Source of the DNA: a virus
Reading direction: 5' to 3' (one strand)
Virus record (IMG/VR): IMGVR_UViG_3300010885_025551
Span: 1-21,973 of that record
Length of the DNA: 21,973 nucleotides
In this document: positions 4,459 through 8,949 of the stretch, piece after piece
How the letters are laid out: every line of letters starts with the position of its first letter
Numbering within the stretch: position 1 is the first letter of the stretch
The notes under the pieces: model-generated
Seen by the model: only the letters and a program-made list of their open reading frames with translations
What the model was told of the DNA's origin: nothing
The model's database searches: none
Program-made: the position numbers and the translations under genes

Positions 4459-5094
4459 TCAACCGAGCACCGGCCCAGCACCACGCAACGCCTCAAACGT
4501 CATGCTTAACGCTGTCAGCTGCCGGCGCTGACGAATCGCCAAGCTGACCGCTGCCTGGCTGACGTGGAGCTCCCGGGCCGCGGCGCCACAGCTGGGCCAG
4601 ATCTGCCCGGTCTCAATGCACCGCACCCGCCAGTCGCCCATCGGCCGCGGGTGAGCAGCGGCGATGGCATCGGCCAGGTCACGATCCTCAAGCAGCGCAA
4701 ACAGAGCGTCCGAGCTGAATCCACCCAGCACGCGAGGCATGGCCCGAGCCAGCCGGCGCCAGGATCTGCGGTTGATGTAGCGCGTGCCGCCAGTCCATTG
4801 CGGGTCAAGAATCGCGGCGACGGCCTTACGCCTCAGCCAAGCATCGACGCGAGTGCCGGGGCACCCCAGCAGCTCGCCTGCGCCGTAGGTGGTAGTCCAT
4901 TCACCAACGCGAGCGCGGCAGTACTGCCTGGAGCGGCGCATCCGCATCACGATGGCTTTATCTGTTCTGGGTGGCCAGCCTTCGTGGGTGGCCTTGCAGT
5001 GCATGGAGCGCAGCAGGGTGGGGAATGGCACGTCGCCCGCGAGGCTCTCTAGGTGGTCGATCTCGGGCTGGGTCCAGCGTGGGGGGTGGGTCAC
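4459..5094 (-). CDS. DNA-binding-like protein with C-terminal NUMOD1-like module
   Basis: A 211-residue protein. The N-terminal half (WTQPEIDHLESLAGDVPFP, then R-x-P-x-R-T) is shared with the partial gene at the left edge and is SANT/Myb-like in its W-E-L spacing. The C-terminus (about 157-200: VRCIETGQIWPSCGAAAREL followed by HVSQAAVSLAIRQ) matches the NUMOD1 pattern, a helix-turn-helix module usually attached to homing nucleases; here no nuclease motif is visible. It is Arg-rich. It overlaps the helicase gene by 4 bases upstream and comes just before VRR-NUC, so a sequence-recognition role for the recombination/nuclease genes, or regulation, is plausible. Function is inference. Confidence 0.7.
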   Translation of the reverse strand: MTHPPRWTQPEIDHLESLAGDVPFPTLLRSMHCKATHEGWPPRTDKAIVMRMRRSRQYCRARVGEWTTTYGAGELLGCPGTRVDAWLRRKAVAAILDPQWTGGTRYINRRSWRRLARAMPRVLGGFSSDALFALLEDRDLADAIAAAHPRPMGDWRVRCIETGQIWPSCGAAARELHVSQAAVSLAIRQRRQLTALSMTFEALRGAGPVLG

Positions 5095-6482
5095 GCCACC
5101 AGCTCCCGAACCCTGGCCTTCCCGCTGCGCAGGCTGCGGGCTGCCATGACGTGCCGTGCCCAGCCGGCGGGGTTCTTCATGTTCCGGCGGCGGCCGATGG
5201 CGATGAGTTCGTCGAGGGTGTTGGCCTGGGCCTGCTCGCGCTTCCTATCTACCTGCTGCACTTCCTCAAGCTCACCGTCCACCGTCTGCAGCTCCCGGCG
5301 CTCAGCCACAAACTCATGGCCGCAGTCGGGGCAGAGCTGTTTGGCGCTGGGCATACAGCTGAAACAGGCAGGGCAGACCTTCACTGATGGCGCCTTCTCC
5401 CGGTCTCGCTTTGGCGTGCCGTCGAGCGTCCATTCCCGCTCCTCCAGGTGGTGTCCCAGCCGGAGCACGTTCCCGACGTGATCCAAGATCACTGCGGTCT
5501 TCCCAGGCTGTGGCCTCAGGCACCGGCCGATCATCTGCAAGTGCAGGCTCACCGATTGCGTGGGCCTGAGCAGGATGCAGCCGGCCACGCTGGGCACGTC
5601 CACACCCTCGCCAATCAACGCGCAGCTGGTAAGCACCTTCAGGCGGCCGGTGCCCAGGTCGCCCAGCAACCGCTCACGGGTCTGGCCGTCCATGGTGCCG
5701 TCGATACTGGCCGCGGCCACGCCATTGCGCTGGAACAGATCCGCCACCGCTTCGGCGTGCGCAATCGAGCAGCAGAACGCAATCGCGGTCTGGCCGTCCA
5801 GATAGCGGCGGTAGTGCGCCAGACAGTCGCCCATGGCCTGCCCGGCCTGCAGCATCTGGCCGGCTTGATTCATATCAAAGTCGCCCATGCGCTTCCGCAA
5901 GCCCACCATTGAAGGGCCTGGTGGTGCCAGCACTCGTGCTGATGCCAGGAATCCCTGCTCGGTCAGCTCGGCCGGCGTTGGCCCCATCACCATCGCCTGA
6001 TACCACTCATTCAGGCCGCGGCCATCGCTGCGGATCGGCGTGGCGGTGACACCCAGCACCCTGGCGCTGGCGCAATGGCTGAGCACTTTGGCCCAGGTGC
6101 CGGCGTTGCTGTGGTGCGCCTCATCCACCACCAGCAGCTGGAAGTAATCCGCTGGTATCCGGTGCAGCCGCCGGGCCAAGGTCTGCACGCTGGCGACCTG
6201 CACCGGCTGGCTCAGGTCCATCGACCGGCCAGCAGCAATCAGGCCATGGCGTACACCCAGGGCCTGAAGGCTGTCGCTCGCCTGTCGCAGCAGTTCCTGC
6301 CGATGCACCAGCACGCAGATCCTGCTGCCCTTGGCCGCGGCCTGCTCGGCGATGTGGCTGAAGACCACGGTTTTGCCGCCGCCGGTGGGAAGGACGAACA
6401 GCACTGATCGGTGGCGTTGGCGATAGGCCTGGCGGATTTCGGCGATGGCCTGGTGTTGGTAGGGGCGGAGGGTGAGGGTCAC
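5091..6482 (-). CDS. SF2 (DEAD/DEAH, RAD25-like) DNA helicase with zinc motif
   Basis: A 463-residue superfamily 2 helicase using ATP to move on or unwind DNA. Seen: Q-motif-like RPYQHQ (6-11), Walker A PTGGGKT (32-38), DEAH box (120-123), TATP (146-149), GEGVDVP (291-297) and QMIGRCLRP (316-324). After the core there is a zinc-ribbon-like CxxC (370, 373) and CxxC (384, 387), then a basic C-terminus. The start is GTG at 6482: a strong AGGAGGT Shine-Dalgarno (6489-6495) lies 6 bases upstream, and the GTG overlaps the upstream stop as GTGA. An upstream ATG at 6518 would lie inside the previous gene. Such helicases in phage recombination modules are thought to remodel replication forks or joint molecules with RecT/SSB. 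Confidence 0.9.
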   Translation of the reverse strand: MTLTLRPYQHQAIAEIRQAYRQRHRSVLFVLPTGGGKTVVFSHIAEQAAAKGSRICVLVHRQELLRQASDSLQALGVRHGLIAAGRSMDLSQPVQVASVQTLARRLHRIPADYFQLLVVDEAHHSNAGTWAKVLSHCASARVLGVTATPIRSDGRGLNEWYQAMVMGPTPAELTEQGFLASARVLAPPGPSMVGLRKRMGDFDMNQAGQMLQAGQAMGDCLAHYRRYLDGQTAIAFCCSIAHAEAVADLFQRNGVAAASIDGTMDGQTRERLLGDLGTGRLKVLTSCALIGEGVDVPSVAGCILLRPTQSVSLHLQMIGRCLRPQPGKTAVILDHVGNVLRLGHHLEEREWTLDGTPKRDREKAPSVKVCPACFSCMPSAKQLCPDCGHEFVAERRELQTVDGELEEVQQVDRKREQAQANTLDELIAIGRRRNMKNPAGWARHVMAARSLRSGKARVRELVA

Positions 6483-7987
6483 ACCGGCACCTCCTGAGGC
6501 AGCTGCATCCCAGGCCATTGCCCACTGATCTGCCCGAGCAAGTTGGTCTTTAGCCAGACCTTGCAGCCATCCCGGCGAGCAGTTTGCACTAGGTCAGCCA
6601 CCCACTCAAACGGCGGGGAGAACGAACTGTTCTGGCCGATGTTCTCCGACTGAGCACCAATCACGATCATGTCAATCCCCTCCAAGGTGGAGAACTTGAT
6701 CGGTTCCAGCAGCGGCTCCAATGACAGCCACTTCACCTTCACCCCAGACACCTTCCGCATGGCTGCCAGGGTTGGCTCCGCTCGGTGCTGCTCATCCACC
6801 GATGCGCCGATCCATCCGCTGGCCGGCAGTTGCAGCCGGTCGTACCGCTGCGGAAACTTCGTCAGGTAGAGGTACTCCCACTGCGGGTTTGCCACTGTGG
6901 AAGCCACCACCTGATCGATCCATTCCTGAGGCACCCAAGCGCCAAATAGGTCGGCCATGGAGCAGACGAACACGCGGCCATGCGCCGGATCTGCAGCTGC
7001 TCGGCCGGGCACCGGGGTGTTGGCTGGCGCCTCCAGCCGTTCGTGGTGAAACAGTGGCGTGAACCCGGCCGGGTAGTAAGCAGCCATGTCGCGGCTGGTG
7101 GCGATGGCGCGGGCGTAGCAGTAGTCGCAGCCGTGGTTGCAGCCAGTGACCGGGTTCCAACTCCACATGGCCCAGCCAATCTCCGTGCCCTTCTGCTGGT
7201 TGAAGGTGGCCTTCCCCTTCGGCTTCGGGTACTCGTAGGGATTGCCCTTGTGGTCGAGAAGGGTGATCGCCTGCTTTTCATCCACCTTCGGAGTCTCAGG
7301 CGTCGGGCGGCTGGCTGCGACCTGCCGTTCACGCTGCTGTGCCTCGCGGTGGGCCCGGTCTAGGGCCATGGTCCCGGCCTGCACCTGGGGGAGAAGATCG
7401 GGGGCCACCTTCTGGACGCGTGCGGCCTGCTCCACAGCACGTGGACTGGCTCCAACGGCCTTAGCGGCCTGGGCGGCGACCTTGCGCTGCTCAGATGCAG
7501 CCTGCTTTGCCGACTGATCAATCAGAGCAGGGGCGGGTGCGGCAGTGGGAGGCAATGAAAGGCCGCGCAGATCTGCGCTGGCTTTCGGTGCAGGCCGGCC
7601 AGGCGCAGCAGATCTGCCCGCTTCGGCCATGCGCTCCTTTGCCGCCGGCTGCAGCAGCTCGCGGACCTTCAACGCCACCACAGCACGTTGGCCTGGGTTC
7701 AAGTGCCGCCGGTGCAGGTTGGCGCTGATGCTGAACTGCACCGGATCAGTGCCCAGGTACTCATCGATCAGCACCTCCTGATTCGTCTCGTAGCAGGCCA
7801 TCAGCCTGTTGCGACCGTCCAGCAGAGTGCCATCAGTCCAGATCGTGATTGGCTGCGCCAGGCCGCGTTCCTTTACATCAGCGCAGAGATCGCGGAACTC
7901 GTCACCCTCCACCATCGGGAACAGATCGGCCGCCGGGTGGATGCCCTTGATCTCTGGGTAATGGCGCAGAACTTCAGACCAATCCAT
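6479..7987 (-). CDS. ParB-like nuclease domain fused to three-Cys (Gp37/Gp68, DUF5131-like) protein
   Basis: A 502-residue two-domain protein. Residues about 10-110 are ParB/Srx-like: LLDGRNRLMACYE (DGRNR at 57-61) and ANLHRRHLNPGQRAVVALKVRELL. A charged Ala/Pro-rich linker (about 111-255) with a helix-turn-helix-like AKAVGASPRAVEQAARV follows. Residues about 260-495 match the phage Gp37/Gp68 (DUF5131) family: WSWNPVTGCNHGCDYCYARA holds C283-x3-C287-x2-C290, the radical-SAM-like cluster motif, followed by VFVCSMADLFG, YLYLTKFPQRY, WIGASV and WLSLEPLLEPI. The known partner of three-Cys proteins is TcmP, and a TcmP-like gene lies directly upstream with a 1-base overlap (TGATG). Start: ATG at 7987 with GGAG 6 bases upstream (GTG at 7990 also possible). 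The chemistry is not established; nucleic-acid modification is my inference. Confidence 0.85.
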   Translation of the reverse strand: MDWSEVLRHYPEIKGIHPAADLFPMVEGDEFRDLCADVKERGLAQPITIWTDGTLLDGRNRLMACYETNQEVLIDEYLGTDPVQFSISANLHRRHLNPGQRAVVALKVRELLQPAAKERMAEAGRSAAPGRPAPKASADLRGLSLPPTAAPAPALIDQSAKQAASEQRKVAAQAAKAVGASPRAVEQAARVQKVAPDLLPQVQAGTMALDRAHREAQQRERQVAASRPTPETPKVDEKQAITLLDHKGNPYEYPKPKGKATFNQQKGTEIGWAMWSWNPVTGCNHGCDYCYARAIATSRDMAAYYPAGFTPLFHHERLEAPANTPVPGRAAADPAHGRVFVCSMADLFGAWVPQEWIDQVVASTVANPQWEYLYLTKFPQRYDRLQLPASGWIGASVDEQHRAEPTLAAMRKVSGVKVKWLSLEPLLEPIKFSTLEGIDMIVIGAQSENIGQNSSFSPPFEWVADLVQTARRDGCKVWLKTNLLGQISGQWPGMQLPQEVPV

Positions 7988-8949
7988 CACAGCTCCACCC
8001 CACGGGCGAACTCATCCTTGGTCAGAAACAAAAACCGCTCCAGCTGATAGAAGCCGCCTGGATCATCTTTGCGCCAGACCACCTGGGGCGGTGCTGTGAT
8101 GCGCTTCTCCAGTTTCTTCGCAGCCCTTATGCACTCTTGGGTGATTTGCTCCCTCCATTTGGTTGGCCCAGTGATCAAGTAGGCCCATTGATCAGCGCCA
8201 CCAATAGAGAACAGGCAGGCGTCATGCCATGTCTGAAGTAGTGATTCGCAAAGCACTTCAACACGCAGAAACCACTCACGCCGCTTTTCTTCGTCGATCC
8301 GCTTTAGCCCGCCGACGTTGCAGCCCAAGGTTGAAAGAGACGTGGTGAACTTTGGGCATGACTGCATGAACTCACCAGTAAGGCACCAGTCCTCGACGTG
8401 GTTTGGATCGTTGTAGATAAAGCAGGTTGCACGCCGGTGAATACCAGGCGGCTTGAGATCCGAAGCGTTCTGATGGCGATACTCGACAAGTCCTTGTCCT
8501 GAGCCCTTGAAGTGGATGCCAGGCGCTTTGGTCTGCCATTCGGCAGCCGAAAGCCACTCAGATGTGTTCCGCAACAGCGCGGCATGAGTCGATGCTTGCT
8601 TCTCACAGGCAATCATCTGAACCGGAGTGGTGGATCGCTGCAGCAGCCAGTCCATGTGCTTTAAGAAGATCCCTGGCGAGCAACCTTCGGTGAAAGGCCG
8701 CTGCCTTTCGGAAAACAAGTCCTCTTGAGTTCCGGAGACAAACGGCACGCCATCACCGGCGGTGAGGTCGTACAGAAGCGCCTCTCTAACGGGAAGGATT
8801 CGGCGGCTCACGACTCCAACTTCTCGGCCCAGCAGGCTGTTGAGCAGGTAGTGCTTGCACGGGGTCACCCCGGATTTTCCGGTTGACGGCCTTCGGGCTT
8901 GCTGAACTGAAGCGGCCATGGACGCGGGCTTGCGGTGGTTCCCGAGCAT
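7987..8949 (-). CDS. Three-Cys-motif partner (TcmP-like) protein, methyltransferase-like
   Basis: A 320-residue protein, first gene of the leftward operon. Seen: a basic N-terminus, KHYLLNSLL (32-40), YDLTAGDG (60-67, resembling the AdoMet-binding D-x-x-x-G-x-G loop), IACEK with E116 (possible ribose-binding acid), YRHQNASDL (157-165) and YNDPNH (179-184, resembling the D/N-P-P-Y site of base methyltransferases), then ADQWAYLITGP. The layout fits the three-Cys-motif partner family TcmP, known to lie beside DUF5131 proteins, as here (1-base overlap). I rate the family match as moderate because no search was possible. The start ATG at 8949 has a GGGG-rich leader; an internal ATG at 8919 is possible. 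A substrate is not known. Confidence 0.55.
   Translation of the reverse strand: MLGNHRKPASMAASVQQARRPSTGKSGVTPCKHYLLNSLLGREVGVVSRRILPVREALLYDLTAGDGVPFVSGTQEDLFSERQRPFTEGCSPGIFLKHMDWLLQRSTTPVQMIACEKQASTHAALLRNTSEWLSAAEWQTKAPGIHFKGSGQGLVEYRHQNASDLKPPGIHRRATCFIYNDPNHVEDWCLTGEFMQSCPKFTTSLSTLGCNVGGLKRIDEEKRREWFLRVEVLCESLLQTWHDACLFSIGGADQWAYLITGPTKWREQITQECIRAAKKLEKRITAPPQVVWRKDDPGGFYQLERFLFLTKDEFARGVEL

Follow-up and report, generated by a model that had tools for sequence, protein, structure and literature searches.

The window analysed here is a complete IMG/VR virus record, 21,973 bases long, and carries a phage gene set (Table 1). Its minus strand bears two overlapping genes, called here T and F in the order in which they are read, at the places and with the overlap given by the first-pass annotation. 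F encodes 502 amino acids if translation starts at the ATG at 7987, or 503 if it starts at the GTG at 7990, and ends at 6479. The TGA stop codon of T overlaps the start of F, an arrangement that predicts translational coupling of the two genes, and the commonest T–F spacing among homologues is an overlap of about 4 bases (gap −3). The RadD/YejH-like helicase gene that follows F is probably in the same operon; it is not a constant member of the T–F module. A sigma-70-like promoter was looked for near the pair and none was found. RecT, SSB and helicase genes lie near T–F in the window.

Table 1. Features of the window and of the T–F gene pair.
Feature	Coordinates	Strand	Basis or remark
Terminase large subunit and portal genes		plus	window annotation
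RecT-like annealing protein, VRR-type nuclease, helicase		minus	window annotation
VapE-type primase-helicase		plus	window annotation
RadD/YejH-like helicase after F	5091..6518	minus	likely GTG start at 6482, overlapping the stop of F
Gene F, ParB-DUF5131 (radical-SAM-like) fusion	6479..7990	minus	ORF, Pfam, fold
DUF5131 domain of F, radical-SAM-like	6548..7186	minus	Pfam PF07505; fold closest to spore photoproduct lyase
CxxxCxxC of F (C284, C288, C291), putative [4Fe-4S] site	7118..7141	minus	invariant, 60/60
Helical region after the ParB fold, F residues 97-228	7307..7702	minus	can be aligned to the HTH portion of pNOB8-like ParB and KorB
ParB-type (NTP-binding) fold, F residues 10-96	7703..7963	minus	fold and profile
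DGRNR, F residues 58-62	7805..7819	minus	R62 corresponds to the P-motif arginine of ParB
T stop/F start overlap, GTGATG	7985..7990	minus	junction reads GTGATGG
Gene T, RlmJ/TcmP-like class I AdoMet-dependent transferase, 320 aa	7987..8949	minus	AF2 model
Motif IV of T, N-D-P-N-H	8398..8412	minus	D181 invariant (73/73); D-P-N typical, not DPPY
C-S-P of T (S91, P92)	8674..8682	minus	equivalent to G-S-P in TcmP and RlmJ
AdoMet loop of T, DLTAGDG	8749..8769	minus	D61 invariant (73/73 homologues)
T-x-x-K(H) motif of T	8851..8865	minus	K32 73/73, T29 67/73

Residues 269–481 of F match DUF5131 (PF07505) with E 3e-35 and a score of 122 bits against a curated cut-off of 28.9. The earlier naming of this part as a Gp37/Gp68 (DUF5131-like) domain was right. 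All three cysteines (C284-x3-C288-x2-C291) are kept in 60/60 F homologues, as are S344, D347, R382, Q401, E425 and K481. The features by which a radical-SAM domain was recognized were both found, the conserved CxxxCxxC in the sequences and the barrel fold on the predicted model (pLDDT 89; pTM 0.61, which leaves the relative placement of the domains uncertain). Among solved folds, that of spore photoproduct lyase (SPL; VIA-align Z 14.4 over 216 residues, 15% identity) is closest to the DUF5131 part, and RlmN (Z 11.4) and viperin (Z 10.9) come next, again on the predicted model; with the whole two-domain model, SPL chains reached only E 0.002–0.008 in Foldseek. SPL is a radical-SAM enzyme that works on DNA bases. 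F is like it in the CxxxCxxC and the overall fold, and unlike it in its low identity, in substrate-side residues that are not matched and in missing the family model: PF20903 matched neither F nor any of the 60 homologues in Pfam scans at E 0.01. A reading of C343 of F as the hydrogen-donor cysteine of the photoproduct lyase was dropped, since that position is N, V, S or G in other DUF5131 proteins and the register to SPL was off by one.

The ParB/Srx-like domain with the DGRNR motif that had been proposed for the front of F was borne out by profile and by fold. A profile of 60 F proteins matched solved ParB/Noc/Spo0J chains with E down to 1.3e-12, and residues 10–94 of the model align with ParB 7bnr (VIA Z 10.8, 83 residues). 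Pfam ParB_N gives no significant match on F by itself and is detected directly in 18 of the 60 homologues. R62 is kept in 56/60; the arginine of the P-motif is needed for NTP binding in ParB folds, according to a survey of ParB fusions (PMC12704722). The alignment extends into the helical region, over F residues 9–226 for the pNOB8-like ParB 5k5d (Z 10.1) and 9–228 for KorB 8qa9.

This front end is ParB in many F homologues and DUF3102 (which replaces ParB in one homologue) or other domains in some. The F-type protein of Streptomyces NBC_01238 has an unrelated N-terminus, and a Mycobacterium intracellulare DUF5131 protein has neither a front end nor an adjacent T. The N-terminal domains of F are thus exchangeable on a widespread viral T–F pair; the ParB fusion, singled out as notable by the first-pass annotation, is real but not unique to this phage. 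Outside the F family, the nearest ParB relative (47% identity over 92 residues) is part of an MT-A70 methyltransferase of 507 aa encoded on a Sinorhizobium plasmid; a protein of a Bradyrhizobium phage is built in the same way. In phages, fusions that join a ParB fold to an N6/N4 or other DNA methyltransferase are common (PMC12704722; PMC12783734). Like such fusions from phages and plasmids, F places a ParB-type domain before a putative base-modifying enzyme, but its catalytic domain is DUF5131 where theirs is a methyltransferase; DUF5131 is absent from the main text of the survey (PMC12704722). DNA targeting, proposed from the ParB-like part, holds up as a putative function, although ParB domains may also act as nucleases or NTPases and not in targeting (PMC5512222).

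T matched no family in Pfam, PHROGs, NCBIfam or PADLOC apart from a chance Folate_rec match below the cut-off, and HNH matches to PHROGs within the T set were confined to single members at most. A sequence search of the PDB with the T profile gave weak matches only, the best being PH0793 (E 0.009 over 50 residues). An AlphaFold2 model built from 73 homologues (pLDDT 88.2, pTM 0.87) predicts a class I methyltransferase fold closest to RlmJ. The top two Foldseek matches were E. coli RlmJ (E 1.5e-6 and 3.7e-6), VIA-align gave ten RlmJ/DUF519 entries at Z 15.3–17.1 with Trm1 as the next family at Z 12.0, and a fold search of BFVD returned general methyltransferases only. Likeness of T to methyltransferases and conservation of the three cysteines of F, on which the first-pass annotation had made its proposal depend, were therefore both found.

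The AdoMet-loop and D-P-N-H motifs pointed out earlier in T hold in the family, with D61 and D181 kept in 73/73 homologues; K32, S91 and E/D116 are conserved as well. Invariance of this order, together with that of the cysteines of F (60/60), is not due to chance. The motif order is common to T, TcmP and RlmJ, namely K(H), D-x-x-A-G-x-G, (G/C)-S-P, E/D and D-P, and the K(H) motif of T is in the same place as K-H in E. coli RlmJ and in TcmP. HMMER comparison of T with a single RlmJ sequence gave motif matches in order, with an E-value that relates to a one-sequence database, and hhalign gave no useful alignment of this pair. T thus resembles RlmJ, the 23S rRNA m6A2030 methyltransferase (DUF519), in fold (Z 15.3–17.1) and in the order KH, D-x-x-AG, GSP, E, DP, but differs from it in identity (12–14%), in always being paired with DUF5131 and in motif IV, where N follows D-P in 59/73 T homologues and RlmJ has D-P-P-Y. 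The lack of DPPY speaks against T simply methylating an exocyclic amine; it may instead methylate a carbon or ring position, or transfer a different part of AdoMet.

T had been called TcmP-like, which holds for distant kinship and fold but not for strict family membership. The TcmP model TIGR04474 did not match T even at E 10, and hhalign against three TcmPs put the motifs in register but with a probability of only 3%. Iterated profiles started from the T family reached two of three held-out plasmid TcmPs in round 3 (1e-5 and 7e-3) and all three in round 6 (E about 1e-11 to 1e-14); annotated plasmid TcmPs were excluded from every round, and the ORFs of fetched loci that were searched are DUF5131 neighbourhoods only, so that drift is possible. 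We take this to mean that T and TcmP are homologous families and that T is a divergent TcmP relative. The known DUF5131 + TcmP pair (PF07505 + TIGR04474; PDC-M30/M41 in PADLOC) is like T–F in setting a DUF5131 with CxxxCxxC beside a class-I-methyltransferase-like partner, and TcmP and T have K(H), D-x-x-(A/S)-G-x-G, S-P and D-P in common. In T–F, however, the partner precedes F, is shorter, misses TIGR04474 and lacks the C-terminal GMT-wHTH (0/73 T proteins against 2/3 TcmPs tested; not a formal TcmP criterion), and F has a DNA-binding front end. F matches PDC-M41B/M30B and T matches none of the PADLOC PDC-M30/M41 models. No paper on the function of DUF5131 or TcmP was found in the open literature searched.

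Two plasmid loci of the DUF5131–TcmP kind are recorded here for their layout. On pKLC102 (locus L034, 1897–6060) the pair comes directly after a DEAD/DEAH helicase gene. On a plasmid of Streptomyces sp. P9-2B-2 (L032, 2834–6209) DUF5131 and TcmP run towards each other and are not in tandem, and no gene is annotated for the DUF5131 ORF. In Sinorhizobium meliloti a TcmP gene is listed beside the defence helicase Hna (PMC12445080), and the DUF5131–TcmP pair may be a companion of Hna.

The recurrence of the three-Cys/TcmP-like pairing was seen in full in searches started from T, which yielded 31 loci on 19 distinct viral contigs; F was beside T, with T directly upstream, in 31/31. Searches started from the DUF5131 of F gave 80 genome and 80 viral loci. 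Among 162 usable F genes, an upstream T was present for 77 of the 91 whose N-terminus is extended by 100 aa or more and for 6 of the 71 compact ones; after clustering at 50% identity these became 5/6 and 0/32 clusters, respectively (p 1.2e-5). Compact DUF5131 genes without an upstream T are common, and T is thus not required for every DUF5131. Distances between T proteins correlate with those between F proteins (r 0.65 for DUF5131 and 0.70 for the N-terminus; 68 loci, Mantel p 5e-4), as is expected for genes that travel together, and this is not proof of contact.

T–F homologues are mostly in viral records, among replication and modification genes, and pairs also occur on Streptomyces plasmids. 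A search of genome contigs with T sequence patterns confirmed none; since the F-based scan later found T–F pairs in genomes, these patterns were too narrow. Genes adjoining T–F encode N6/N4 and C5 DNA methylases, helicases and primases (raw counts, with no background set). At loci L017 (1186–3575) and L018 (2470–4859) an N6/N4-type DNA methylase and an SNF2-like helicase are divergent beside T–F, and this helicase family recurs in 8 T–F loci. A Streptomyces caniferus plasmid (L029, 1160–7413) has T and ParB-DUF5131 near Ku and an ATP-dependent DNA ligase of the non-homologous end joining type.

From these data we infer, with close to an even chance of being right, that T and F together modify nucleic-acid bases as a two-component system, with DNA as the most likely target, combining a radical step with transfer from AdoMet. 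DNA base modification is favoured because the DNA-gripping front end is found elsewhere on DNA methyltransferases, because the radical-SAM-type domain is nearest to a DNA-base enzyme, and because the partner, predicted to be co-translated, resembles AdoMet-dependent base transferases. The ParB-type fold and helical domain would place F on DNA and may serve as an NTP-gated clamp or as a sequence reader. The DUF5131 part would hold a [4Fe-4S] cluster and cleave AdoMet to a 5'-deoxyadenosyl radical acting on a base. T, of RlmJ/TcmP type and co-produced with F, would transfer a methyl or some other group from AdoMet to that base, either ahead of the radical step or following it. For the phage, the probable gain would be modified DNA that escapes host nucleases.

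Counted for DNA modification were the invariant cysteines, the SPL-like and RlmJ-like folds, the conserved T residues, the 31/31 adjacency and the tracking of T by the N-terminal extension, and also the exchange of front ends, the presence of ParB on MT-A70 methyltransferases and the DNA-enzyme neighbours. Counted against it were the RNA enzymes RlmJ and Trm1 as nearest folds of T, the second place of RlmN for F, the nuclease or NTPase roles of ParB domains (PMC5512222), the lack of DPPY in T and the abundance of compact DUF5131 without T. The first two of these contrary points would suit an RNA modification system that alters host rRNA or tRNA, or counters a tRNA-targeting defence, with the DNA-binding front end only regulating or tethering it: RlmJ acts on A2030 of 23S rRNA, Trm1 on tRNA, and RlmN is the second fold family for F. 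We consider this improbable, as T is accompanied by ParB, DUF3102 and HTH front ends, which point to DNA, the neighbours are DNA enzymes, and T is without the DPPY of RlmJ.

The SPL-like fold could instead mean DNA repair, in which a photoproduct-lyase-like F would be guided to phage DNA and T would assist or mark the site, damaged bases being restored rather than modified. SPL is the closest solved fold by a clear step (Z 14.4 versus 11.4 for RlmN), one Streptomyces plasmid pair is beside Ku and an ATP-dependent DNA ligase, and the window has RecT, SSB and helicase genes close by. Fold likeness by itself is weak evidence of substrate, however, F matches no SPL family model in Pfam scans, and a methyltransferase has no role in known photoproduct reversal; repair is accordingly given a small chance. 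An equally small one goes to T–F as a phage-borne relative of PDC-M30/M41 that blocks other phages or plasmids by defence or superinfection exclusion. In its favour, PADLOC has TcmP and DUF5131 as candidate defence proteins, plasmid pairs adjoin a DEAD/DEAH helicase gene, and TcmP is a neighbour of Hna in S. meliloti (PMC12445080). Against it, PADLOC lists them as candidates whose mechanism is untested, T–F differs from those pairs in size, in having T before F and in the fused front end, and the viral records that hold most T–F homologues place them among replication and modification genes.

DUF5131 with a TcmP partner is an already catalogued pair, occurring across bacteria, archaea and phages. 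Two points are new: the partner family has a previously unrecognised branch with a predicted RlmJ-type fold, and DUF5131 occurs widely in phages in a form whose DNA-binding front end is exchangeable and accompanies this T branch. The front-end fusions are a strong hint that the substrate is DNA, and the T fold, of RlmJ type without DPPY, supplies a catalytic framework. Together they make a long-open annotation testable with two small overlapping genes and the residues C284/C288/C291, D61 and D181. DNA modification by T–F may extend to a widespread and unnamed phage hypermodification system, a generalization that we regard as rather doubtful. A radical-SAM enzyme would there be brought to DNA by a ParB-type clamp or an exchangeable DNA-binding domain, and an RlmJ/TcmP-type methyltransferase would work on the same base. 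If true, phage DNA would be the direct, polymeric substrate of a radical enzyme.

Two further observations concern neighbouring genes. In the unrelated phages Bipper, vB_LagS-V1 and PhiCh1 (loci L026, L027 and L028), T-less DUF5131 genes are next to or near genes for ASCH-domain proteins, and ASCH may read modified nucleosides. The window itself encodes a SET-domain protein at 678–1328 on the minus strand (Pfam SET, E 3e-12) with a trailing CxCxxxxC; to our knowledge, SET proteins are unusual in phages.
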